Origin: Onthophagus taurus
Taxonomy: Eukaryota > Arthropoda > Insecta > Coleoptera > Scarabaeidae
Assembly: GCF_036711975.1 (NCBI RefSeq)
Contig: NC_091971.1
Coordinates: 7,199,501-7,263,500, forward strand
DNA length: 64,000 nucleotides
Direction: 5' to 3'
Below the pieces are notes generated by a model. It saw nothing but the letters and a program-made list of their open reading frames with translations. It was not told the origin of the DNA and did not search any database. Made by a program: the position numbers and the translations under genes. Below are positions 6,155 through 64,000 of this stretch, piece after piece; position 1 is the stretch's first letter, and each line of letters opens with the position of its first letter.

Positions 6155-6500
6155 TATTCGGGTTTAGCCATCTTGAGAGACGCACGGCTAAACCCGAATT
6201 TTAGTTAGCTAGTTAGTTCTAGTGACAGTGCTAGGTAGCATTAGATATCCTAAGTCTGAAGACACGCGTGCAAAACTAGAACTAACACTAGATCTAGAAC
6301 TAGAAACATTCGGGTTTAGCCGTCTTGAGAGACGTGCGGCTAAATCCGAATGTTTCTAGCCTAGATTTAGAAATGTTTCTAGTGCTAGGTCTAGTGTTAG
6401 TTCCAGCTTTAATTGTTATTTAGCATATAAAGATTCAACAAAATTGATACATTGTTATTGAACTAAAAGTAAGTGTTCATTCTAGTTTTAGTTCAATCAA
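6155..6500. repeat. Family A palindrome cluster 2
   Basis: Two stem-loops with the family core (TTCGGGTTTAGCC, loop TCTTGAGAGACG, GGCTAAACCCGAA) bounded by CTAGAACTA words. The cluster ends in a TTAGTTCAAT-like tail seen at other copies. Confidence 0.85.
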
Positions 6501-13426: not shown

Positions 13427-16400
13427 GTAAGCCACCCTATTACGCTTCAATTTGATCGAAGAACAAAAGGTTCGTTCCAGAGTTAGTAACCTGTAAGTTA
13501 GGTATGTCAAGGAGTCGTCAACAGCATCTATACTCGTCATCGCATGACAGCATCCCAACACCTTGCGTGACCCGTCCTACAAACGTCGTTAGTTCGGCAG
13601 CCAGCGAGTTGGATTTATCCAGAAAAACAAGGAGAAGAGATTTACGAGGAAGACTCAAATTACCCGCGAGCGTAGCGTTGGCAAGTTCCGGGGAAGCTCC
13701 TTTATTGGGTGGTTGGAGGACTACTCCGGGATCTACCTCCGGGACAAATCCACCATCTTCAAATCATCTCAATTCAACCAGCAGTTGTAACGGAACGGAG
13801 AGGTAAGACTCATTCATTATTAACACATTAATTAGAACACAGTACGTTTGTGTTGAGGAATATAAATTTAATCAAAACGATTAATAACAATATACGTTGT
13901 AATAATTCATATGGTTTGCGTAATTAGTTGCGTACATTATTTAAGGTGGGAATACACGAACATGTTATGCAAAATTTATATCATAAATAAATTATAAGAT
14001 GCATTTAGTACTCTATTAGATAGAAAGCTTTTTGCTATATTAGATTACGTTTTAATATTGATTTTTTTAAATAAAACTTAAAAGTTTATTATTAAAGCTA
14101 AAATTTTGGGTTTAGACATTTTGAGAGACGCACAGCTCTAGATTTAGTTGTTATTCAGCGTCAGATTGTAATAATTTTTGTTCAACAAACAGTACAACTA
14201 ATACTAGACCTAGAACTAGAAACATTTGGGTTTAGTCATGCGTCTCTTACGACGGCTAAATCCGAATGTTTCTAGTTTTAGTTCTAGTGTTAGTTTTAGT
14301 GATAGTGTTAGTTCTAGTTTTACTTCAATTAACATCTGCCGTAAAAGCCATCTTAGTTACAGTATTGATTTATTTAATTTTTAATTATTGATGTGTTTAT
14401 GGTAGGTACTTTAAGTTTATAAATTAGGGAGGAAACAATCTTATTTATTTAGCGGGTGTCTCGAGAATCGGATTATCTTGACAATGTAGAAGCGGGGGCA
14501 GTCAGATTCAAGCTTTATTTATGCATGGTTCCCCGCAAGGTAACAAGCACCGCCTAAGCAAGGCCATACAGTTTTAAAAGTGTTCCATAAAATATTAAAA
14601 GTTGAGCTGCTCGGTTAAATCCGGCTTTTTCTAATTATAAATAAATCTAAGCACATCATTACTTAATCTCATTACTTTTCATGATCAATCCTTTAACTAA
14701 AACTCACGAGACGTAAGAAGATTTACCTTGAAAGATTTTACAAGATTTATTCTGTTAAGTTATCTTTTTCTTCTTTTTCAGTCGATACGGGTTTCGAAGG
14801 GTTGACTCATATACAGCAAGACTCAGACCTGGTGGCATCGGTTGGTCCTTTGTATTCGACCCCGCGGGGAGGCTGTGCTATTACTGGTCAATGATAGTCT
14901 CCTTCGCGTTCCTATACAATTTTTGGGTCATAATATACCGCTTCGCCTTTCAAGAAATAAACAGTAAGTATACTGATATTGCGTTTCGGGTACGCCGAAG
15001 AATAAATAACGACCGAAAGGTAAATTCGACCCTAATATTAAAGAGTTTTCCTTCGCCCCGGTAAATATCGTGTTTGTTCGTCCCTCTCTCGAATTGAATT
15101 TCATTTTACAACGAAATTTTCCAACTAAACTTTTCACCAACAAAATCTACGGCTTGTTATTTCGATATAACCGTACTGGTAATAAACATGTTTTATGTCA
15201 AATAAAATGAAATGATATCAAATTTACTGAACCGTTTAACGACGATTTAGTGCGAGATATAAAACTTACGATTAGATAATTAAACTTTATTACATTCACT
15301 ATTTAACAGTTTATATATATTACACAGTTATTAACTTCATGCATTAGTAAATATTTATTTAAAAAATTAAATATTATTGAGCATATATAAATTGAATACA
15401 AATTCATTTTCATATTTATGAAATGGTTCATATTGTATTTGTTGTAATATTTAAATTACAAATAATTCTCATTATTATCAATTAATCTGCTTAATAGTAT
15501 TGTCAACGATATAATTATGAATCATGTTAAGTATTGATGAACGACATAAAGAATTTAATTACTAATGTCATAAACAGCGTAATTGTGCACGAATTTTTTT
15601 CGTCTTTTAATTTAAATTAATTAAATTGTTAACAACACGGACTGGTCGTAAACAATGGGTGTTTGGCGAATATTCTAACCACATGTGTTAAAATACAGTG
15701 GCACATGTTGTGCGACACAAACAACGCGTATAACAATATTGTAAATTTAGTAAAGTGTGTTGATTTGAATAAGTATGTAATTATTCTAGAATTTAGTATT
15801 AAGTGAAATTCTGGCCTTTCCGTTGGCATATTCATATTATTTCAATATAAAAATTTTATAGATCATTCCAATAGCTCTCGTATGTATTCTAATAAAACGG
15901 ATTTGCTGCCGACGACAGCCCTACTTCTAACACATATTTTACGATGATAATAAAATTTAATTTATATTTTTCCGGTATGGATTTATTAAAATCTCCGCCA
16001 TCGAATGCGACGTGTGGAATAAATCTTTTTATTAAAATTTATTTATTTTGTACTATTGCAATATGGATGATAACGAAATACGATCATTTTATGGATATGC
16101 CTTCAAATTAAATTCGATTCTGGATGAGTTCTTTAATAACTTTTAAAGTATGTGATAAAAAGTTTCATACGTATCTCTACAAATGATGCTCTTACAAAAG
16201 CTTTTATTGTCTTTGTTAGCTTCAATGAAAAGAAGCGCAAGAGGTGATTGAAGATGTGCCATCACATATGATTCTTTGATTTTGTCTGCTTGCGTTTTAT
16301 CAACGATATCAAATTTGCAAGAAAATATTTAAAAAGAGCGAAAGAGACTGACGAAGATGCTTCAATATCCCCACAGTCCTTAATTGAACAAAACAAACCT

Positions 16401-19400: not shown

Positions 19401-22400
19401 TGCCAACTAAAAATATAAACACCTTTACGTCCCGCTTACCAACCGAAGCACTCCGAAGCACCGTTTGGCTGGTATTTCCACACTGAAATAACAAACATAG
19501 AGACGAGACGGAGTACCCAACGTACGGTACATATATGATCGGTTAAATATTTACTCACGCGTAAACAAACAGATGGTGTCTAGTCTAGCTGAAAATATTG
19601 TAGAGTGCGAAAATTTCCCCCCTCACATTGTTTATTTACTACTTTATTCAACAAGATAAAAGCTTTATTTTCATTTGCATCATAATAAATAAATTCATTA
19701 CTCTCATTCTCTGGTAATTAGTATAAGTATTACAAGAAAAACTAGATTTAAAATACAATAGATATATCTCAAAACATTTAAATGTAACGATTTTCAACAC
19801 ATTATTTTGAAAGCGTAGAGGAAATGGGATTAGCAAATGCAGTTTGAGCAACCATCAGGGAAGTTCGGCTGTATGGGTAGTGATTCCATTTTGTTAAAAC
19901 TCAGATACTGCACCAAACAGTCACTTTTGAGATGTGCAGTGACTGCTAGGGTTAAGATAACCTAGTGGCCAACTAGCTATTTGGCTTCTTTTTAGGCCAA
20001 GACTCAAGAGAGCTAAAGCCAAGAATGACAGTTCTATTTCATTAAGATAAAAATGAGCTTCATTACTCATTGTGATGGTTAAATCCTCATTTTCATTAAA
20101 CATCGTTGAAGTGGAATCCTGCTCATTCCACTGTTGAATCAATTTTATACGGGTGATCCTATGTCTATGTAATATTCACTGTACAGAGTTTTGAGTTAAT
20201 CGTAAAACTTCGCATTATTGCTTCTTTTACACCATCCGCATTCCCTGGTATTCTGGTGATTTTGACAGATCCGGGTGTTTTTCTTTTCAATACGTATTGC
20301 TAGGGATATCATCATCGTGAAAATTTGTGGTGTTCTCAACTCCACAACGGATACTAAAATGGTAACTCGAAGAGAGTTAAAAGCCATTGTTACTACCTGG
20401 TGCTGAATAACAACTAAAACTACAATTAACACTATCACTGGAACTAACACTAGACCTAGAACTAGAAACATATGGGTTTAGCCGTCTTGAGAGACGCGTA
20501 GCTAAACCCGAATATTTCTAATTCTAAATCTAGTGTTAGTTTTAGTTCTAGTTTTATTTTAATTATTTACCTTTATTGAAATTTAGTTTCTATAAACAAT
20601 GAGAGCGTGTTTGTAACATTACTTGGAAGGAAGTTAACTATAGGGGAAACGCTGAGGTCATGAAACTGCTCAAACTGGTAACTTTATAACATTATTAAAG
20701 TTATCGACGGTGTGTCTAAGAACATGGCAAAGATCAATAATAGAGGAACGGTGTTTGTACCTACGACAATTTCAAAGCTATTGTCTTCAATTACCTTTAA
20801 TGCAAATATCAAAAAAAATTTTTTAAATACCTGTGTATTTTCAGTATTCATTTCGTTAAAATAGTGAATTTAAATTTTAAATGGTTTTGTTTATTTTAAA
20901 ATAATCAACATCGTGTTTTTGTGTGTTTTGATCACAGCAGTTTTTGTTATTATTTTTACAATCAATATCAATGATGTTACAAGCAAAATGTTTTTGTTCG
21001 AACTTTTCTAAGATTATGTACGTGAAGAAGTCATTAGTAAACTATTGGCAATTTACCAAAAGTAGTAATTCTTAAATAATTAAATCCCAAATGTTCGGAC
21101 GCGAAAAGTTAAGAGTAATTGAATTCCCATTGGTACACAAAACTTTCCTAAACTAATCATAATTTCTCCAAGTTTATTAATTTAACAATTACAGAAACTA
21201 TTAAATAAGAATTAAACGCGTTGAAAGATGAATTGGGGATGTCTCTATGTTTGTTAGAGTATGTGTTAAACTCGGGATACGAATACCAGCCTACGCACAT
21301 GTTTTAATTAAATTAAGAATTTGCTCTCAAAAGATATTTGATATAAATAAAAAAGTTCTTTTAAGAGCAATACCTTGTAAAAGTGATAATTCATCACGAT
21401 TTTTGTTGTTTAACTTTCACAGATAACTCGGCCGTATGTGAGTAGGCAAAATGCATTTAAAATTCGTTTCCCGATATTTTTAATATTTCCCTTTTCTTTC
21501 GTTTTGTGTCCACGTCTAGATTTTTTTTAACTTAATAAAACGTAAAAAAATATATTCTAGTTGATTTGTACTGGCTTGTAGAGATGTCTCCCACATTATT
21601 GAAGACATAAATTTGAAATTTTCGTTTCATCTTGAATCAACTTAATCATTTTAAAAAGAACGAAAAATTCAAATTTGATAAACCGCTTTTATATTGATTA
21701 AATATTTTACGTATATGTTGCACCCCCTTGAAAATATGCTTCGTATTCGTCGACGGAGATGATTTATGTCTTCTGAATCCAGCATGATATGACACTCTTG
21801 AAATATAAAGCCCCTAAAAATAAAACTGTTGACTCTGTGTCAACCTTAAAATATTTACCATCCTAATTTTGAGATTTGATTCCGGCCGAAACGCCTCGGG
21901 TTATTTGTTTAAAAGATTACTTTTTCTTGGCCTTATAGGGGTCACCTATAAGGTGTTTGCACAATACAAAGCAATCCGAAACTCGACAAAATTGATCTAC
22001 GTAAAGTAAAACACTCTTCCGTCACCTTTCTCCACTTATTTCTTTGGCGAGCTTTTCCGTATTCAAAATTAAAATAGCCGCAATATAACTTCGTTTGGAA
22101 TTTCCTTTAGAGACGCCACCGTCGCGGTTTAATAATGCAACTGAAATTAGTTTTAAACGTAACTTTCAGCTAAATTTAAAATGAGTTTTAGTTTTAGAGA
22201 TTTAAGTCTATACAACTACGATCGATAAAGCTTTAGCGTCTAACACTTTAAACAACTATCTTCAATCTCGCAAAATACATAAAAGATACATTTTAATCTG
22301 TTGCGTGTATAAAATGAAAGTTTATGCTAATCTAACCGTAATTAACCTGCCAATGGTTGAGGTAATCACTTTACATTAAAACGTTTTGCAATTTTAATGG

Positions 22401-25400: not shown

Positions 25401-28400
25401 GTTATCTGATAAAGTCATTTGATGTCAACATTATTTCTTATTTTCCATAATTCTGATTCACCTTTCAATGCTTTTTCACTTCATTTCCCGATGGAGTTTT
25501 GATTTGAATACATTATCGCAGGGAACACAATTTTAGCTTTAATTTGATACGTTGATAAATTGTCAGAAAAAATCTTAGAAATCCGAATTATTTAGGACTA
25601 TGTTGAGCACTGCCTGGGATGATATTAAAGGAAGTCTGAAAAGATATCGTAAAGTCTTCAAGCGATACTCGAAGATATCTGGAGTACCACGGATGATGAC
25701 ACTCATATGATTAACATTCATTATGGGCAAAAAATAGTAGTGAAAAATTAAATAATGAAGTTTTAAAGATTAATTTTTGTAGTGGAATGTTGTTGATGAG
25801 ATAATGTGGTAAGAAGAGATGTTAACTATTTTGAAGTTAGACAAATTTAACAGCTATCATAAATCGTTAAACGCGGTCTTAATTATTCAACGTCACCGGA
25901 AATTCTTGCGGTTATGTAATAACCGGTTTAATTAAAACTTGCTGTGTAGCAATAATAATTATTTGTTGGTTAAGAATGTGATGATATAAATCTTAATCTT
26001 GCTGTACAAGATGAGTTTTTTAATAATGATTTTTTATCTCAATATTTTATCATACAAGAATTCACGTCGATTAAAGGATCAGATGGAAGCTGTATCTCCC
26101 CATAGACATGTAAATTGCGTGGATCCCTTTTCAGCATTGCGGTACATACATCAGCGTTGTCTCGGTGGCTATAGTCGCAAGGATTCAATCCCCGGACTTA
26201 ATATGTATTAGTCGTTGCAGGTTGATGCCATCAGGTTGCACACCGGCGACGTCAACGCTCAATCGGCGTCGGCGTCGACGGAGGCGGTGGAGGGACGCAA
26301 AGTCCTGAAATAGCTTCCCAACCCCCTGCGCACCTCGATCGATGCCACCCTGACGCTAAAAATAACTTCACGTGCCCTACATACTCTCTCCCCTCGTATT
26401 CTGCATACTACAAACTCCCGGTTATCCATCCGCCCACCGGACCTCTCTCTACCTTTCAAAATCACCACGACCAATTTTTTTAATATCACTTCCTTCTTAA
26501 AAATTAAATTTCCCATATCATCTTAACACCAGCAGATAGTGTTGAAATTTAGTAAATTTATTTAACACTTGTCGTAGTGACGTTAATCCAAAAATCCAAC
26601 AGAGACTATCTTGTACAACGTGAGTTAGCCCAGAAACAGAGTAGTTAATGCCAGGTATTAGTGTAACCGTTGTCTATGTAACATTAAATTTGATAAAACG
26701 AAAATTCAGTAAACGTGTTGGAAAATGTTGCGGGAAAATGCGGGGTCCGTTTAGAGCCCACGGGGTAATAAATTTCAACTTGTTACGCTAATGTTTTACG
26801 AGATTGCGTAAAATACGGGGATGCAAATCCGTATTACCAATTAACCGAACGTCTATTTTAACAAAACTTATACGTCGGCTCTAAATTAATGTCCCACCGG
26901 AACGGGGCAACCGTAAAAGTGCCATTTTGAAAAACCGACGCCACCTTTAATGCCTTTTACACCTTTAAATTGAGATTATCTAAACCATTTCCTACGGGCT
27001 AACGCTCACATCCGGGATTTATACCGAAGCCTCCCGTATACGATGGAGTTTACGGGTGCTGCTCACGCTGAGGATAATTTTATTCCTCCGATAAATCATC
27101 GCTTCAAAACTTTCGATCGTAAATCCGCATAACTGGGCTAATGTACTTTTGGTTATTGTCGTACGAATGCTCCATCTACCTGCCGAGAAGTATGGAGAAA
27201 ACTTTTTAAAGTATCCAAAGTCTTATGATTATTATTCTATGAACCAGTCGAATTCTTTGAGCTGTTATTACCAGAGGTGCTTTTAATCTGTCTAAAGAAA
27301 AGATATCTCTCCCAATTGGTTAGAGCTCAGTATAGATGGAGTATCAGAATTCACGGCCATTAATACAAATCCATTGATTTTGGTGACCTGGATACATTCC
27401 TGGATTTATTTAACTCCCTGGATACACCACTCTTTATCGAAGCATAACGGTGGATTGATCATGCCTTGATAATTCAAACAATATTAATAAGAAGAACAAC
27501 CAAAAACACTTAGTTCATCAGTACTCAAAACTCTCGCTGTTTTAATTGAACTTAAAAAATGTTGATTCACGGCTAAACCCGAAACTTTCTAGAACTAGTG
27601 TTAATTCTAGTTTTAATTGTTATGCTGCGCTAGACCAAGAACTAGAATCATTCGGGTTTAGCCGTCTTAAGGGACGTACGGCTAAACCCAAATGTTTCTA
27701 GTTCTAGGTCTAATGATAGTTCTAGTAACAGTGCAAGTGTGAAACTAGAACTAACACTATACCTAGAACTAGAATCATTTGGGTTTAGCCACACGTCTCT
27801 AAAGACGGCTAAACCCGAATGATTCTAGTTCCAGTGTTGGTTCTAGTTTTACACTAGCACTGTTACTAGAACTAGAGACGTGCGGCTAAACCTGAATGTT
27901 TCTAGTTCCAATGTTGGTTCTAGTAACAATGATAGTGTAAAACTAGAACTAACACTAACCTAGAACTAGACACATTCAGGTTTAGCCACACGTCTCTAAA
28001 GACGGCTAAACCTGAATGATTCTAGTTCTAGGTCTTGTGTTAGTTCTAGTGATAGTGCTAGTGTAAAACTAGAACTAACACTAGACCTAGAACTAGAATC
28101 ATTCAGGTTTAGCCGTCTTTAGAGACGTGTGGCTAAACCTGAATGTGTCTAGTTCTAGGTTAGTGTTAGTTCTAGTTTTACATGCCGTATTGAGAGACGT
28201 GCGGCTAAACCCTAATATTTCTAGTTTCTAGTTCTAGTTACAGTACAAGTACACAGTAGTTTTGTAACGATAGTTACTGCATTCATATATTACGAGTTAT
28301 ATAAAATTCCCGATATTACATTAATACAAAAAGCGCTAATATAGTAGAACAATACAATGTATAAGTAAACTTAGTGTAGTAATAAGAAATGGTAAATTGG

Positions 28401-31400: not shown

Positions 31401-34400
31401 CGATCGTAAAATTTTGGCGATTTTGTTTCAGAAAAATTTACTTTGTACTGATTGGATTAAGTATCTATCCAGTATACAGACCATTAAATATTAAATTAAA
31501 CGGTTTTTCATATAAGTTAATGGTTCAGAAGAAGTTTTAAAACAAAAAGATTTTTCCTATCGATATGATCTATATGATCTCAAAGTTTTGTACATATCAT
31601 ACAGTGAATTTCACTTAAGATGCAATATACAAAAATATCCATAAAGTGCAATATACAGGGTGACTTATAAGTTCACCATCAAACTTTGTAATGCCCAGAT
31701 ATGTTCATTATGGTAATTATTTATACCATCTCGTGTAAAACATGATTGTTGTTGCTGATTATCTCCTAGCTGTAGAGCTTGAACATTCTGTTTACAATAC
31801 GGATGAAGGAATTCGCGGTTCAATACGCGCCATGCAAAATTTTGACTTACATGTATGCTGTGTGCTATTCTTCGAGTGCTGATGGAAGGATTATCAATGA
31901 CAGCATTAATTACTTCTCGAAGTCTTCTGAAAGAATCGCTAAAAACTGAATAATATGGCAAATGCCGCAGTGGAAATCTTTCTTGATAATCTCGTACTGA
32001 TTGTCGAGAATTTCCATTGCAAAAACAATACACGAAAATTATATCAACATACTCTTCAGTGCTATTAGCGTACATTTTAAGTTTCTTGTTGTATGTAATA
32101 ATTAAACCACACAGCAAACTAACATATTACAATGACAATAATTGAAATAGGACATATGTTCATTAACATTTTTATTTTTGGTAATTGAATTAGCTATCAT
32201 ATGTCAAAGTTTGATGGTGAGCTAATAAATCACCCTTTATATAATTTACCTCATGTTTTGTTTATGACAAATGTTTTTAACTTCGTTGAGATACAATTTA
32301 TGTTTCACTCCGTAAAAGATCTCCACCCTGTATATAATAAAGCGTGGTCTTAAAATTATATATTTGAATATTATTTTTTTAATAAATTTTTCAATTCTCA
32401 TTGTGTTCAGTGTGGAAAATGTAGGCCGATTCCAACACTTCGTTATTCGATTAACCCTTTTTTGGAGTACGGCTGCAAGAGACGCCTTTGAACTAACCGT
32501 TCCATCAAAAATGACAGCAGCGCCGCTCGCCGGTAGCCGTTGAAACGCGAACCGCACGGAAATCTGTTAATTCCGCGCCGATTCGGCCGACATCGGAAAC
32601 TCATTCACTATGCGCGCAGCCAACTCGATTTTGACCGTCTATATATAGATGCGATTTCCAATACCACCGTGTATTTTCCACAAAAAGAATTATTAATTTT
32701 AATCCAAACCCGAATTTTTCAAATTTTTTTCTTTGATTTATTTTATAAATAATTCAATTAATAATAATATAATTAAAAATAATAATTTAATTATAAAATC
32801 TTGAATTTAAAGTACTTTTCGTGATATACATTTTGATAAAAAGAATCGTTAATTTGAATTGGACCGTTTATACTAGAAATTCCAAACGGGCAGCGGAAAA
32901 ATTAATTTTGTGCCGATAACGAACTCGGGCACGTTATTGCCTTCGTTTTACCGGTATTTTTAGTGATTAAAAACGACGAGAATAAGCTTAACAACGCTTA
33001 ATTAAAAATGTTAGTGGATGTGCACTCGTACGATTGAACCATTTTTTTGCTCACCTTTTGATTTAATAACGAGAGGTAGCTACGAGCTGGTATAATATTC
33101 TAAAGAGTCCGCATCCACCGCTTAATTAAAATTATGCTAAAAATGACTAATTTAGTACAAGCACACATGTCTTTTCTTATTACTGCTTGTAGTTTTAACC
33201 CATTTGCATCATTCAGAAAGGAATTATAAAGTGACCTACATATCAATAATTTTTTTTTTCTGTAGAACTATCTTTTCTCTATCTAGAACTAAAAACATTC
33301 AAGTTTAACCGTTTTGAAAGACGCACGGCTAAACCCGAATGTTTCTAGGTCTAGGTGTTTTAGTTCTCTATTTAAATTACTAGAAATATGCAACAACCGT
33401 GAATGACCACTAAGACTGAAGCTATCACTAGAACTAACAGCTCCAGTCTTAATGCTAGTGTTAGATCACTAGAACTAATACTAGACCTAGAACTAGAATC
33501 GTTCAGATTTAGCCGAACGTCTTTTAAGACGGCTAAACCCGAACGATTCTAGTTCTAAGTCTAGCGTTGGTTCCAGTGATCTAACACTAGTACTAAAACT
33601 GGAGCTGACTCTAGCACTATCACTAGAACTAACACTAGACCTAGAACTAGAATCGTTCCGGTTTAGCAGAACGTCTTTTAAGACGGCTAAACCCGAACGA
33701 TTCTAGTTCTAAGTCTAGTATTGGTTCTAGTGATCTAACACTTACACTAACATTCAAGACGCACTGCTAAATCCAAAAGTTTCTAGGTCTAGTGTTAGTT
33801 CTTATTCTAGTATTAGCTCTAGTTTTGGTTGTTATTAAGCACGGCTAAACCCGAATATTTCTAGTTCTAAATCTAGTGTTAGTTCTAGTTTTATTATAAT
33901 ACATTAAACAATAATAATGGTATAAATAATATCAATTTTGGTCCCTATTGTAAGCGTATGTATACAATGGTGATAATGGTCAAGAAAAATTCGTTAAATT
34001 AAATACAACTTATGATGCAAATGTGTTAACATAAATATTCCCATTCCACTTTTAAATTAGCATCCAAAAACTTTAGATTTTTTTTAACTCTCTTCAATAT
34101 TTTAAATAAATCTTTCAACTTATTCTATTATAGTTTTTTTTTTGTCTCCGTGCCTAATGTTTCTTAGTAAAAGCCAATCAAAATGTACTTTACTTTCGCC
34201 CGTTTCCAATGATTTTTGTTCCAGCCAAATTGGACGGCGTGAAAACGTACATGCGCATGAGGAGAGTCCCCAATCATCTACAAGTCAAAGTGATCAAATG
34301 GTTCGACTATTTATGGCTCACTCAAAAGTGTTCCGATGAGGAGAGAGCCGTTTCTTGTCTTCCAGATAAATTAAAAGCGGAAATAGCCATCAACGTTCAC

Positions 34401-37400
34401 TTAGACACCTTGAAACGGGTCGAAATATTTCAAAATACTGAAGCTGGATTCCTCTGCGAGTTGGTGCTTAGGCTTAGACCGGTTCTTTTCTCACCAGGTG
34501 ACTACATTTGTAGAAAAGGTAAAATCTAAATAATAAGTTGATGTGAATTAGATTATTATTTTTTTATTTTAAACGTAGGTGAAGTAGGTAAAGAAATGTA
34601 TATAGTGAATCGAGGTAGACTTCAAGTGGTTGCTGATAATGGTAGAACTGTGTTGGCAACGTTGAAAGCTGGGAGTTATTTTGGAGAAATTTCTATATTA
34701 AACATGGGAACGGCAGGTAAACACCTTGGTAAATATCAGGCAGGCCCATTTTATTGGTGGTTGGAATTAATACTACTACAACCCCTTTTTGGTATTGCTA
34801 TCCAATAGCATGGTGCTTTTGTGGCTTGATCTGTTTAATATTTTTCATTTTTTTATGTAAAAGTAACGTTATCAGCAATTTTTTTTATTATAATATCTAA
34901 ATTTATTTTTGAAAGGCATAAAATAGCCTTAATGATTGAAACATCAAAGGACAACCACAATTTAATTTCCTTTTCTAATTAGTGTTTGATGTAGCTACTC
35001 CCATTTGTTGATTGCATCTATTCACAAAAGGCTTAACTATTTATACCAATAAGAAACTACTTGTACCTTAGTTTACAGTGTGTATGTATTTGTCTGTTTC
35101 ACGGAGGGAACTCAAATTGGAATTACTGTTTGCGGACAATCAGTTAGAATTTGCATGTTGCCAGGGGGAGGATTTGAAGAGAAACTTGTATTTGCATTAA
35201 CCTTTTACTAATAGTAATTCGATTAAGGGACGAAAAGGATGAATTTTGTTTAAAGAAAATTGCTGGTAACCTGTTACTCCGTTCATCTAATATTCTTCGT
35301 TCACCTCGCCGAGAGCATATGCAACCTTCGTTTCGCGATTCAATGCACATCATCAGTATCAATCAGTCTGAATCCCGTAGGCGCGATAACAAATCCGGCG
35401 TAAAAGCCGAATTGTCAAGATCCGTATCTATATTGAATCGGCGGCCAACAACGCGCCTCCAAACTCACCCCCGATTTTAACCCTCCCCAACGGCTCACGT
35501 TGCTGCCGGTTTGTTTGCTCCTTTTTGCCTGCGCTGCACATCTAATGCGAGTTTGTGGCATGAAGCCAAACACGTTAGTGTCAACCCCGCAATTCCATAC
35601 GTACGCCCCGAGCTACCACAATATTTTACCAGGAAATTCAGGGCGGCTATGATAAATGGATTAGCGCGTAATGGCGGACCTCTATTTTCGGGTTTGAGGT
35701 TATTTCGGTGAAAATGATCCCCAGAAGTGCGATAAGTAACACAACATAAACTTAAACTAGATATGAATGTATAATATATGATAGAAAATATATATTCTCT
35801 CTCGTTTCCATGGCAAAGTCTCCAAAAATAGATGACCCAATGTAATTAAAAAATAGATGACGTTTAAGATGACCTCGCATTTATTACTACGCTTACTACA
35901 AGAGTTTTGAATCTATTAAAAGTCTTAAATGGGGATATACAGTGAATTTCACTTAAAATACAATATACAAAAATATAGTTCTATAGAAATCAGGGCCACA
36001 TAAAAAACAACATTTCTGAATGTTTCTAGTTCTAGATCTAATGTTAGTTCTAGTGACAGTGGTAGGTAGCGCTAGTTAATATAAGATATCAGTTACGTCT
36101 GAAGACGCACGGCTAAACCCGAATGTTTCTATTTCTAGGTCTAGTGTTAGTTCTAGTTTTACACTAGCACCTATCACTAGAACTAACACAAGACCTAGAA
36201 CTAGAATCATTCGGGTTTAGCCGTCTTGAGAGACGTGCGGCTAAATCCGAATGTTACTAGTTCTCGGTCTAGTGTTAGTACTAGTATTACACTATCACTA
36301 GAAACATCATAAGACCTAGAACTAGAATTATTCGGGTTTGTCTTAGCTGCCCTCGATACCTTACATTTTTAAATGCTTCCAATTACTCCGAATACCTCCA
36401 AATAGCACGCAATGTCTTTATCTTTTACTGGCGTTAAGTTGTTGCTGATATTTTTAGCTATTAAATGCTCGAAATGTTTGTCAAAGGTTTTTAATTACTC
36501 CGAATGACTCCCAATGGTTCTCACTGACTCCAAAAAGCTTTTAATATCGTTCGTAATTACAACACACACAAAAAGTGTTGTTTTTTAAAGGCTCTCAGTG
36601 CATTAATATCGCTAATTAACTCTGAATTGATTAACTGTGAGCTGACCTCGATACTTTACACTTATAAATGCGAATACCTCCAAATCCTTTAGTGGCGCCA
36701 AGCTGTTCCTACGCGTTGTTCCTGATACTTTTAGGTATTAAAGGTTGAAGAATAATGAGAATGACTCCTCATCCCTTAGTAATTCTGTATCCCAATTTAA
36801 ATTCTTCTCACTGACTCCCAATAGCTTCTAATATCTTTCGTTGTTACTGAGCCTAGTTGCTTACAAAAAGTGTTGGTTTAAAAAGCTATCAAACAGTACA
36901 TCAATATCTCTAATTAATTCTGAATTTACTAGCTCTTAGCTGCCCTCGATACCTTACACTTTTGAATGTCGCAATATCTTTATCTTTTAGTGGCGTTAGT
37001 TGCTCCTAATACCTTTTGCTAAAAGCTCGAAATACCTCTTTCAATTACTCCGAATAACTCCTAATGGTTTTCAGCATCTCTCAAACTCCGAATAGCTTCT
37101 ACTATCTTGCGTTGTTACACGACCTAGTTGCTTCCATAAAGTATTTGCTTATCAATATCTATCGTAGATTCTGAACATACAGCTCTTAGCTGCCGTTGAT
37201 ACCGTACATTTTGTTCCGAATATCTCCAAGTAGCTGGCTGGCTGGCTTTAAATACCTCTCATTAGATTTCAATTACTCAGAATGAGTCCCAATGGCTTTG
37301 GATATCTCAAGATCTCTCAGTAATTCTTAATTGCTCTTAATGCTCAAGATTTACACTTAAATCGCCGAGGTCGCTTGCGGGCGAAACGCTTGAATTCTTG

Positions 37401-42894: not shown

Positions 42895-42960
42895 ATTATT
42901 TTGACCTAGAACTAGAAACATTCGGGTTTAGCCATCACTTGAGAAGGCTAATGTTTATAA
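42895..42960. repeat. Family A fragment
   Basis: A left arm CCTAGAACTAGAAACATTCG and GGGTTTAGCCATC, then a decayed right side. It abuts the LINE fragment. Confidence 0.7.
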
Positions 42961-46505: not shown

Positions 46506-48615
46506 CCATATCTGAAGCTGCTAGTTTTCCATATATACATATACATAGAATAATCATGCAAAATAATTTGATATTAAAATAGTATTATTTAAGTGTTTGC
46601 CTAACCTATCCTTTGATATGGACCCCCTCAGCTGATAGAATGAGAGTCATTCGGCTTGCGCATACTACATATCAATCCTTTTATTCCACGTGGAAAATAA
46701 CCATGATCCTCTGATCTCAATGAGAGTTAGTACTTTCATGGAGGCATTGTCGTTAGTGAGGCTTACAAACCCTCCAGCATGCCTATGAAGTGGGTATATT
46801 TGCATCATGGTTATTTTCCACGTGGAATAATAGGATTGATATGCTGTATGCCCAAGCTGAATGACTCTCATTCTGTCAGCGGAAGGAATCGATATCAAAG
46901 GATAGGTTCGGCAAACACTTAAATAATACTATTTTAATATTCAATTATTTTGCACTAATTTTCTATTTATATGTACATATGGTACACTGGCTCAAGATAT
47001 AGAAGTATTCAATAAATTTTCCACGAGGAATTATAATAAAAATTGCATATATACGTATAACTAAAATATTCGTGCAAAATACTTTAATATTAAAATACTA
47101 TTATTTAAGTGTTTGCCTAACCTACCATTTAAATGACTCCACGTATCTACCGACTGGAAGTCTGGCCCCTAGTTAGAAAAAAAATAATTTCGATTAAATT
47201 CGCTTTAACTAAAGAACGGTTTGACCGATTTCAATGTTCTATATCTCAAACGAAAGCTTGCGTCTGGCTCAATAATTATGTGTAAAGCATATTGAACACT
47301 TCCATATCTGAAGCTGCTAGTTTTCCATATGTATATGTAAATAGAATAATCATGCAAAATAATTTGATATTAAAATAGTATTATTTAAGTGTTTGCCTAA
47401 CCTATCCTTTGATATGGACTCCCCCGCTGATAGAATGAGAGACATTCAGCTTACGCATACTACATACCAATCCTATTATTCCACGTGGAAAATAACCATG
47501 ATGCTCTGATCTCAATGAGAGTTAGTACTTTCATGGAGGCATTGTCGTTAGCGAGGCTTCCAAACCCTCCAGCATGCCTATGAAGTGGGTATAGTTGCAT
47601 CATGGTTATTTTCCACGTGGAATAATAGGATTGATATGCTGTATGCCCAAGCCGAATGACTCTCATTGTGTCAGCGGAAGGAGTCGATATCAAAGGATAG
47701 GTTCGGCAAACACTTAAATAATACTATTTTAATATTAAGTTATTTTGCACGAATTTTCTATTTATATGTACATATGGTACACTGGCTCAAGATATAGAAT
47801 TATTCAATATATTTTCCACGAGGAATTATACTAAAAATTGCATGTATACGTATAACTAAAATATTCGTACAAAATAATTTGATATTAAAATACTATTATT
47901 TAAGTGTTTGCCTAACCTACCATTTAAATGACTCCACGTATCTACCGACTGGAAGTCTGGCCCCTTTAGAAAAAAAATAATTTTGATTAAATTCGCTATG
48001 ACTAAAGAACGGTTTGACCGATTTCAATGTTCTATATCTCAAACGAAAGCTTGCGTCTGGCTGAATAATTATGTGTAAAGCATATTGAACACTTCCATAT
48101 CTGAAGCTGCTAGTTTTCCATATGTATATGTAAATAGAATAATCATGCAAAATAATTTGATATTAAAATAGTATTATTTAAGTGTTTGCCTAACCTATCC
48201 TTTGATATGGACTCCCCCGCTGATAGAATGAGAGACATTCAGCTTGCGCATACTACATATCAATCCTATTATTCCACGTGGAAAATAACCATGATGCTCT
48301 GATCTCAATGAGAGTTAGTACTTTCACGGAGGCATTGTCGTTAGCGAGGCTTACAAACCCTCCAGCATGCCTATGAAGTGGGTATATCTAAATCATGATT
48401 ATTTTCCACGTGGAATAATAGGATTGATATGTAGTATGCGCAAGCCAAATGACTCTCATTCTGTCAGCGGGAGGAGTCGATATCAAAGGATAGGTTCGGC
48501 AAACACTTAAATAATACTATTTTAATATTAAATAATGTTGCACGAATGTTCTATTCATATGTATATATGGTACACTAGCTCAAGATATGGAAGTATTCAA
48601 TATATTTTCCACAAG
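46503..48615. repeat. Tandem array of about 795-bp units, each with a foldback
   Basis: CCATATCTGAAGCTGCTAG recurs near 46507, 47303 and 48095, and CCTATCCTTTGATATGG at 46605, 47401 and 48194 (spacing 796 and 793). Copies are highly similar. Within each unit, about 370 bp (46571-46940, 47367-47737, 48160-48529) is an inverted repeat with arms of about 135-145 bp: ATATTAAAATAGTATTATTT at the outside, TTCCACGTGGAAAATAACCA near the loop, loop of about 90 bp. Between foldbacks: CTATCGACTGG-type spacer with TCTACCGACTGGAAGTCTGG. The repeated 77-codon frames on the minus strand come from the inverted repeats and look non-coding. Confidence 0.9.
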
Positions 48616-57486: not shown

Positions 57487-59536
57487 TTACTCCTTGGGTT
57501 CTTGCACTTTCGATTCGTTTTCTTGCCTAAGTTTCTTCTTTGCCTTAATATCCGCCATGGTTTGTTCAATAGATCGGATGTCTTTTTTATTTTCACTAGG
57601 AACTAAGACAGTATATTAAAACTAGAATTAACACTTGCCCTATATATTATTAGATCTAAAAGATTCTAGAAACTTTGTAGTTTTAGATCTAGTGTTCAGC
57701 GCTAGGTTGTTGAATATCTTTGTTGTTTTTATTGAAGGAAAAGTAGAACTAACATTAGACCCAGAATCATTCGGGTTTAGCCATAAGTCTCTTAAGACGG
57801 TTCAACAAAAATATGCAGCAACCTGGCGCTGATTAATAACTAGAACTAACACTAGCACTGTCACTACAACTAACATTAGATCTAGAACTAGAAACATTCG
57901 GGTTTAGCCGCACGTCTCTCAAGACGGCTCAACTCGAAATATTTTAGTTCTAGGTAGAGTGTTAGTTCTAGTAACAATGCTAATGTAAAACTAGAACTAA
58001 TACTAAACCTAGAACTAGGAACGTTCGGGTTTAGCCGTCTTGAAAGACGAATGGCTAAACCCCAACATTCCTAGTTTTAGCTCTAGTGTGAGTTGCAATT
58101 TTAATTCAGGAATGTTTCAATTTTCTTTCAAATCTTTTCAAAGCCTTTATATTTATGTACTTGTATACAGAGTGATTCTAAATTGATGCGAAAGATTTCA
58201 AGGGGTGATTTTTCACCAAAAATTAAAGGGTTTTCATATAACTTTTTGTTCAAAACCCCTTCTCCTCCAAGTTATCTCTCCCTCTAAAGTTTCTCTCGAC
58301 ATTTTAAAACTAACAAGTTCTTAGTTTGATCACAAAAAATAAAATAATGCCTAGATCAATTTGACATTACTTCATTTCTTTGATTAATAATAAACAATCT
58401 CTGAATTAATTCACTAGAGCCTGTGTATTATTTTATTTTTTTGTGATCAAACTAACAATTTTAGGAGAAAATGTCTAGAGACAAAAAAGTTGCGTATTGA
58501 ATGCCTCTATTTAAATCAAGTTTTTAAATAGAAAAATCTAGACGCATTAAAAAGTTCTAATGCAAAGTATTATAGGGGTTCATCTTTTCAGCCCTTTTTA
58601 ATACCATTTTTGAGTTATAAAAATCGTCAGTGTCATTTTATTAGCAACAGGTATCTGCCAAATTCCATTCTAAATTCCTCCATGGACTTATTAAATAAAA
58701 ACAATTTTTTCTCCTTACTTTAGAATGCTATAACTCGGTGGGGAAGAAGCTTTGAACAAAAAGTTATATGAATCAATTTAGAAACACCTGTATATATTTG
58801 CAAAATTACCAAATCCATAAGTTTTATTTGTTTCTGTTTTCCTTGCCATTTCAATAGATGATATTTCCCCAATCAAATGAACATATTTGTCTTCATAGTT
58901 CGTATTGGGCACAAATTTCTTAGTCGGTTTTTTATTTAATTCTTCGGATTCCAATTGATCAAGTTTTCTCTTAAAAACATGTAACATTGCTTTCGACTCA
59001 CTCAGCGATTAATTATAATACCTTCTCAATCATTTTTTTCTTGATGTCATCGTTCCAGGGATCACCCCGTTTTCTTGCCAACAATTCATCTTCACACGGG
59101 GGATTCGCTTTTCTGTAAACCCGTACGTATCTATCAACGTCTTCGATTCCAAACGAAAAAGATATTAAATCTAACGATTCTGCCACTTCATGTCTATAAC
59201 AATATATTTAAAATAATAAATAAAATGAATTATTTCATTTTTAATCTTACACAATGCTTCGGTATATTTGATTCATCGGTGTAAACTTCATGTTGATATT
59301 TTCATCGTTTTCAAAAAATACTTTCATTTTTGTTTCGGTGTATTCTTTGAATTTACGTAAGTTTTCCTTTTCAATCGCTTGTCTTCGATCCATTTCTTCT
59401 TTTCTTTCTGAATGGTGTTATTAGAGGTTGTTCAAAAAATAACGCATTTTTACTTACTTTTGATTATGTTTTTTTCTTTTTCACTTAAAGACGGCGGTTT
59501 ATCCATTGAATTCATAATTGATCCTAACAAGTCCAT
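57487..59536 (-). CDS. SPAG7: SPAG7 homologue, R3H-domain protein
   Basis: Five exons: 59536-59458, 59407-59251, 59193-59022, 58969-58810, 57602-57487; 227 aa, the same length as human SPAG7. Start MDLLGSIMNSMDKPPSLS matches the family. An R3H single-stranded nucleic-acid-binding domain spans about residues 45-110 (FTPMNQIYRSIVHEVAESL, with R-x3-H; then SFSFGIEDVDRYV). Later come YEDKYVHLIG and a basic end DIRSIEQTMADIKAKKKLRQ. The vertebrate protein is nuclear and of poorly defined function. Intron 3 is only 52 bases (59021-58970): the frame closes only if the acceptor is GTTTTTAAG. Intron 4 is 1.2 kb and holds family A palindromes and a MITE. Confidence 0.93.
57610..58115. repeat. Family A palindrome cluster in SPAG7 intron
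   Basis: Three stem-loops or parts, with AACTAGAAACATTCGGG / GTCTCTCAAGACGG and a later copy whose arms share the rarer AGGAACGTTCGGG / CCAACATTCCT. It includes the ATATGCAGCAACCTGGCGCT flank word. Confidence 0.85.
58168..58790. mobile_element. MITE with TA target duplication and nested foldbacks
   Basis: Ends: CAGAGTGATTCTAAATTGAT at 58168 and, reading back from 58790, CAGGTGTTTCTAAATTGATT; TA on both sides. Inside, a second inverted pair (TCATATAACTTTTTGTTCAA near 58233 against 58770) and a third (AGTTTGATCACAAAAAATAA near 58322 against 58455). No transposase, so non-autonomous, probably Tc1/mariner-mobilised. Confidence 0.82.

Positions 59537-62476: not shown

Positions 62477-64000
<1,524 letters not shown>

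Follow-up and report, generated by a model that had tools for sequence, protein, structure and literature searches.

A near-perfect palindrome in a transposon-associated A/B repeat array of Onthophagus taurus, most likely a recent local inverted copy

In the window, the whole stretch of 64,000 nucleotides analysed here (C6:7199501–7263500), two arms of an inverted repeat are identical over 99 bases, and they belong to a repeat family whose other copies in the window have diverged at many sites, as a comparison of the window arrays bore out. The locus raises the question of whether the arms are identical through youth or through upkeep. The original prediction had named both possibilities, a very recent inversion-duplication and active correction between the arms.

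Positions 28083–28181 of the window sequence are the reverse complement of 27937–28035 at 99 of 99 positions, which confirmed the exact arms. The pairing reaches outward to 27936/28182 and inward past a lone T:T mismatch (28036/28082) to 28050/28068, and the 15 further inner bases with one mismatch lead to a 17-base centre just as had been claimed. Altogether the palindrome spans 247 bases, with two arms of 115 nt (27936–28050 and 28068–28182; one mismatch in 115, 99%) and a gap of 17 nt. Also the description of each arm as a stem-loop in itself was correct, the hairpins of both arms (27958–28033 and 28085–28160) having a 16-base loop and 30-nt stems that are 93% complementary. The focal palindrome was the only exact inverted match of at least 50 nt in the window (100 nt), the next longest being 48 nt. 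The cruciform that had been suggested for it was assessed through folding as a single DNA strand, which reached -135.1 kcal/mol (z -32.9), a value equalled by none of 200 shuffled sequences. The features of the locus are the following.

27570–28243, no strand: whole A/B array holding the palindrome (limits by eye)
27936–28050, plus strand: left arm, made up of an A hairpin module flanked on each side by half of a B module
27958–28033, minus strand: A hairpin within the left arm (stems 30 nt, loop 16 nt)
28051–28067, no strand: centre of the palindrome, 17 nt, the asymmetric core of the central B module
28068–28182, minus strand: right arm, the reverse complement of the left arm with 1 mismatch in 115
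28085–28160, plus strand: A hairpin of the right arm, 30-nt stems and 16-nt loop, the loop oppositely oriented
28183–28205, plus strand: A module starting within its loop, the array being out of register from 28182/28183
28247–28312, plus strand: right terminal repeat of the transposon that carries the array, differing from the applied right-end pattern by 7 substitutions in 66
28314–28315, plus strand: TA after the right end, with one base (A) between

The focal array is built of a hairpin module, A, which has an asymmetric loop and alternates with a quasi-palindromic spacer module, B, at a period of ~127, and both modules are found in both orientations. Around the palindrome the modules follow in the order B-, A-, B- and A+, and then comes the A+ that starts within its own loop. 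The left arm keeps the register of the array; the right arm breaks off in a B module, and at 28182/28183 it joins sequence that starts inside the loop of an A module. The central B module forms a hairpin with a 14-bp stem and a 17-nt loop. According to the ORF list for the focal region, no open reading frame of at least 80 aa overlaps 27570–28312. Beyond the focal array, the window includes nine more A/B arrays or fragments longer than 30 bases:

1359–1808, no strand: another array of the A/B family
near 6156–6419, 14193–14323, 20407–20547 and 33283–33893: further arrays of the family
near 42900–42938, 57615–58094 and 63638–63800: further arrays of the family
35940–36339, plus strand: array of the family with a transposon left end, TA preceding

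Elsewhere in the window, long direct repeats lie ~795 bases apart at 46545–48480 (e.g. 182 nt exact at 47271/48064), as far as seen with no relation to the A/B family, and some of the ORFs resemble insect genes by eye (a kelch/BTB protein, an aspartate aminotransferase and an ionotropic receptor).

An RNA gene was rejected as an identity for the locus: the 36 Rfam rows obtained for 27500–28400 (E up to 1) all stayed below the gathering scores and were mostly of microRNA families, and such weak rows are expected of long hairpins. For annotation, the A/B family explains hairpin-rich stretches scoring weakly as microRNA precursors as something other than RNA genes. Also a viral relative was rejected. 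A 16-base motif led to six stretches of viral contigs, none of them rich in array motifs, and these were taken as chance matches.

The original prediction had the palindrome right but missed the junction of the array with a transposon end, the right end at 28247–28312. The ends of the carrier were recognised at loci retrieved through two linkers of the A/B family; the left end is TA followed by CAGTGAATTTCACTTAAAATGC and the right end is GAGTTATATGAAATTCCCGR followed by TA. TA is present on both sides of all four two-ended copies (352, 470, 517 and 2265 nt), and it directly precedes 10 of the 12 left ends recognised with at most 4 substitutions and stands at most one base after all seven right ends, in addition to which two more right ends were read by eye, a two-base repeat in AT-rich DNA being weak evidence for any single copy. 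The second linker was represented by 14 loci (L048–L061, two of them near-duplicates), and a left end was present in eight, in L050 with 7 substitutions. Alignment of the terminal inverted repeats (TIRs) exceeded 200 shuffles in all four two-ended copies, by unequal margins: clearly in L056 (score 48, shuffle maximum 36; inner block with 27 of 29 positions matching) and in L061 (34 against 27), barely in L003/L062 (32 against 30), and in L058 with 29 against 27, but there the aligned part consists of array-like sequence. The ends are dispersed over several contigs, the first look giving 856 left and 1090 right candidates, of which 40 of each were scored.

Judged by its ends, the carrier appears to be a non-autonomous DNA transposon with TIRs, MITE/foldback-like and resembling Tc1/mariner by its flanks only, and it is presumed to be mobilised by a transposase encoded elsewhere. 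Carriage by a TIR element is established for some A/B arrays, not for every one. No transposon ends were seen at most of the window arrays at the tolerances used, and L063 and L064 had a right end alone in the stretch fetched. The focal copy is a decayed remnant of the element, since its array joins a right end but no left end belonging to it was found within the window at the substitution tolerances used. As a counterpoint, the same arrangement might be an array joined to a stray right end. The segment 31602–32117 of the window has another left end of the carrier (1 substitution, TA before it) and, at most ~60 bases after it, a different insert; an ORF of this insert (31665–32117, minus strand) gave a weak match to a DUF4817 helix-turn-helix (E 1.2e-4, 22.1 bits against a cut-off of 22.6), and the segment therefore looks like a nested transposon. 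The second window ORF scanned with Pfam gave no match.

When the genome assembly (290,825,966 bases in 33 contigs) was searched, A/B modules were found scattered genome-wide. The palindrome as query gave 2211 first-look candidates, of which 40 were scored, and a random sample of 10-kb stretches had nine A/B clusters in six of 18 stretches, covering 1350 of 180,000 bases, the smallest clusters being 24–29 bases. The window is richer in the modules than this random sample. Module identity, stem pairing and compensation were analysed from 235 A modules of 40 loci, with L001, L036, L041 and L055 left out as overlaps or near-duplicates, and orientation frames from 243 A and 202 B modules, with L065–L075 also left out and L063–L064 included.

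The identity of the A modules of the two focal arms is 0.982, compared with at most 0.857 and 0.866 reached by the same modules at other sampled loci, and GGTTAGTGTTAG, carried by both arms, was found only these two times in the sampled sequence. Both observations point to the focal palindrome being, most likely, a recent local inverted copy of an array unit, and the very recent inversion-duplication proposed at the outset is supported by them. Among 20,000 random A pairs between loci the identity had a median of 0.73 and a maximum of 0.973. Within 3.5 kb, 49 of the 558 A pairs in the same orientation had an identity of at least 0.97, as did three of the 290 pairs in opposite orientation, two of these in L027 and one the focal pair. 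L027 includes a palindrome with arms matching at 253 of 253 positions and a 17-nt B core at its centre, and also a second inverted pair of 186 nt with the arms far apart, while L029 has 120-nt arms with an A module as the centre. Direct copies that are exact outnumber the inverted ones and reach greater lengths, e.g. 738 nt in L026, where a four-module higher-order unit of 325 bases is present at 242–1330 and the exact repetition extends over this length. Because recent exact copies, both direct and inverted, are present in other arrays, exact arms need no special upkeep.

The palindromes of other arrays bear also on an artefact of assembly or sequencing, a fold-back chimera in the contig. Chimeras of this kind are known in general. 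The focal arms are short, differ at one position and terminate within the array, all of which goes against a chimera, and with similar palindromes present in L027 and L029 we consider an artefact very improbable.

Active arm-to-arm correction fared less well as a main standing process. With the A hairpins oriented by their loops, pairing at most stem positions was close to the expectation for independent arms. In a set of 49 A modules, one per cluster, one-sided changes numbered ~330 against 375 in shuffled data and compensated changes averaged 31.5 against 21.6; in 95.5% of 200 draws the observed compensated count exceeded the shuffled one. The arms within single A hairpins thus mostly drift independently, and standing correction is not needed; as the main process it was not supported, one-sided changes being dominant. 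The small excess of compensated changes could come from shared subfamilies, but occasional correction may also contribute to it. What comes near to the second of the two possibilities first named, correction between the arms, is a single homogenising template switch, which is possible.

Such a switch, or gene conversion, would be the essential step if an older quasi-palindrome had existed at the locus and its left arm had overwritten the right one, no new unit being added. The units are quasi-palindromic already, neighbouring A modules are oppositely oriented in 65 of the 166 cases, and the slight compensated excess in the A hairpins would fit as well. The lone mismatch at 28036/28082, which adjoins the 14-bp stem in the B module at the centre, is a common polymorphism of the family (GGTCTTGTGTTAG with 78 and GGTCTAGTGTTAG with 118 occurrences), as if it were the edge of a tract. 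Yet one-sided changes predominate in the A hairpins, and plain overwriting would not produce the loss of register seen on the right side at 28182/28183. We regard such overwriting as rather unlikely, and rank it second, after a single fold-back or template switch.

The explanation ranked first, which we hold to be fairly probable, is that the palindrome, lying in the array of a decayed non-autonomous TIR transposon copy, is a young inverted unit produced by one fold-back or template-switch error of replication. The new strand would fold back or switch template at the B hairpin with its 14-bp stem and 17-nt loop, ~100 bases of the left unit would be copied in reverse, and the copied strand would then rejoin with a shift of register at 28182/28183. 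Identity of the arms would be due to the youth of the copy and not to upkeep. The left arm is likely the source of the copy, since it is in the register of the array and the right arm is out of register at 28182/28183, and the mismatch at 28036/28082 may mark the switch point. Template switching between inverted repeats in yeast is described as homogenising the arms and inverting the spacers (PMC8604942), template-switch mutation between inverted repeats is treated also in PMC8794818, and origin-dependent inverted-repeat amplification is reported to give larger inverted copies (PMC10766186). The fold-back or template-switch step itself we infer from the present array and not from a known ancestor sequence.

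A direct tandem duplication of the unit, followed by an in-place inversion of one A module through exchange between its arms, would give a similar order of modules, and direct duplicates form the largest group of young copies (the 49 of 558 pairs with identity of at least 0.97). Isolated flips, single A or B modules opposite between like neighbours, were detected in 13 of the 108 eligible frames, distributed among six loci with six of them in L042; a further 72 frames were otherwise mixed in orientation. However, the left and the central B modules differ at 4 of 33 positions, more than the A modules do, and compared with 1 in 115 between the arms this is mildly against a block having been duplicated directly and then inverted. 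The stem pattern expected of loop-only flips was present in just 5 of the 235 A modules. Neither was copying of in-place flips from neighbours supported: six flipped modules from arrays other than the focal one were tried, together with one in the first array of the window, and in these other arrays a flipped module was not closest to its own neighbours. Altogether we find this order of events improbable.

Apart from the single error preferred here, the B hairpin could be favoured as a pivot, fold-back copying being primed again and again by its stem and 17-nt loop, so that a cut-and-paste element would enlarge its palindromic array through inverted duplications primed by the hairpin. The two longest close-set palindromes, the focal one and that of L027, pivot on a nearly identical 17-nt B core. 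This common pivot is suggestive at most, because the pivot of L029 is an A module and centres that are in register can be of two kinds only. The B core is not the sole pivot, as is seen from L029 (A-centred, 120-nt arms) and from the second pair of L027 (186 nt), and a preferred pivot of this kind seems improbable to us.

MITEs of the Tc1/mariner type have TIRs, TA flanks and no evident coding capacity, and they are present in many copies. The carrier is like them in its TIRs, in its copy number and in its flanks, with TA on both sides in four of four complete copies, and judging by the focal region, where no ORF of at least 80 aa was seen, it may also be like them in coding capacity, but unlike them it has an internal palindromic array of variable length. 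Tetris, the foldback transposon of Drosophila virilis, is described as having 220-bp direct repeats inside its TIRs and target duplications of 8–10 bp (PMC4079207). As described there, it is like the carrier non-autonomous, TIR-bearing and modular, with internal tandem repeats that vary in number and amplify locally, while the array of the carrier lies between the TIRs, consists of quasi-palindromic modules of either orientation and is accompanied by TA flanks. No target duplication of 8–10 bp was found in the four two-ended copies, which share TA or at most TATA, and since the repeats of Tetris are moreover direct and within the TIRs, the carrier was not classed with it. The Helentron-carried arrays reported from the Pacific oyster (PMC7492417) are similarly short, dispersed and satellite-like and are borne by a non-autonomous mobile element, but the carrier there is a Helentron and the one here has TIRs and TA flanks. 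As in the template-switch mutations described in PMC8604942 and PMC8794818, a single event would yield arms that are identical and spacers that are inverted; the yeast cases given in the former have arms of 10–16 bp and spacers of 2–5 bp, whereas the focal tract is ~100 bp, lies in a repeat array and is reconstructed without an ancestor.

The phenomenon is thus of a largely known kind, the distinctive part being the make-up of the A/B array. No published description of the A/B array family was recognised among the papers listed by literature searches, which went by words and not by sequence. Within one genome the arrays provide a natural collection of short inverted repeats that differ in age, and together with alleles or sister species they could reveal how frequently fold-back takes place at hairpins and how long exact palindromes persist.

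Some further repeats were observed in the sampled loci. On contig C4, eight matches to one family linker are present at 1.95–2.51 Mb, ~55–150 kb apart (contig 2.7 Mb), and L054 and L055 of this contig also have their flanks in common, which points to large duplicated blocks. In random samples with no A/B cluster there were exact inverted matches of 279 nt (L023, 3718/5572) and 175 nt (L024, 760/1342), and exact inverted repeats of other kinds are therefore not rare in the genome. Telomere-type TTGGG repeats, which few insects are known to possess, were present at the end of C6 (L071, 1–400), at the start of C1 (L072, 1–400) and near the start of C11 (L074, about 217–400); of five contig ends, three had TTGGG repeats, one N and one no TTGGG. 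As a telomeric motif, TTGGG has been reported in some scarabaeoid beetles (PMC8233369) and, sporadically, in insects of other orders (PMC12564400).
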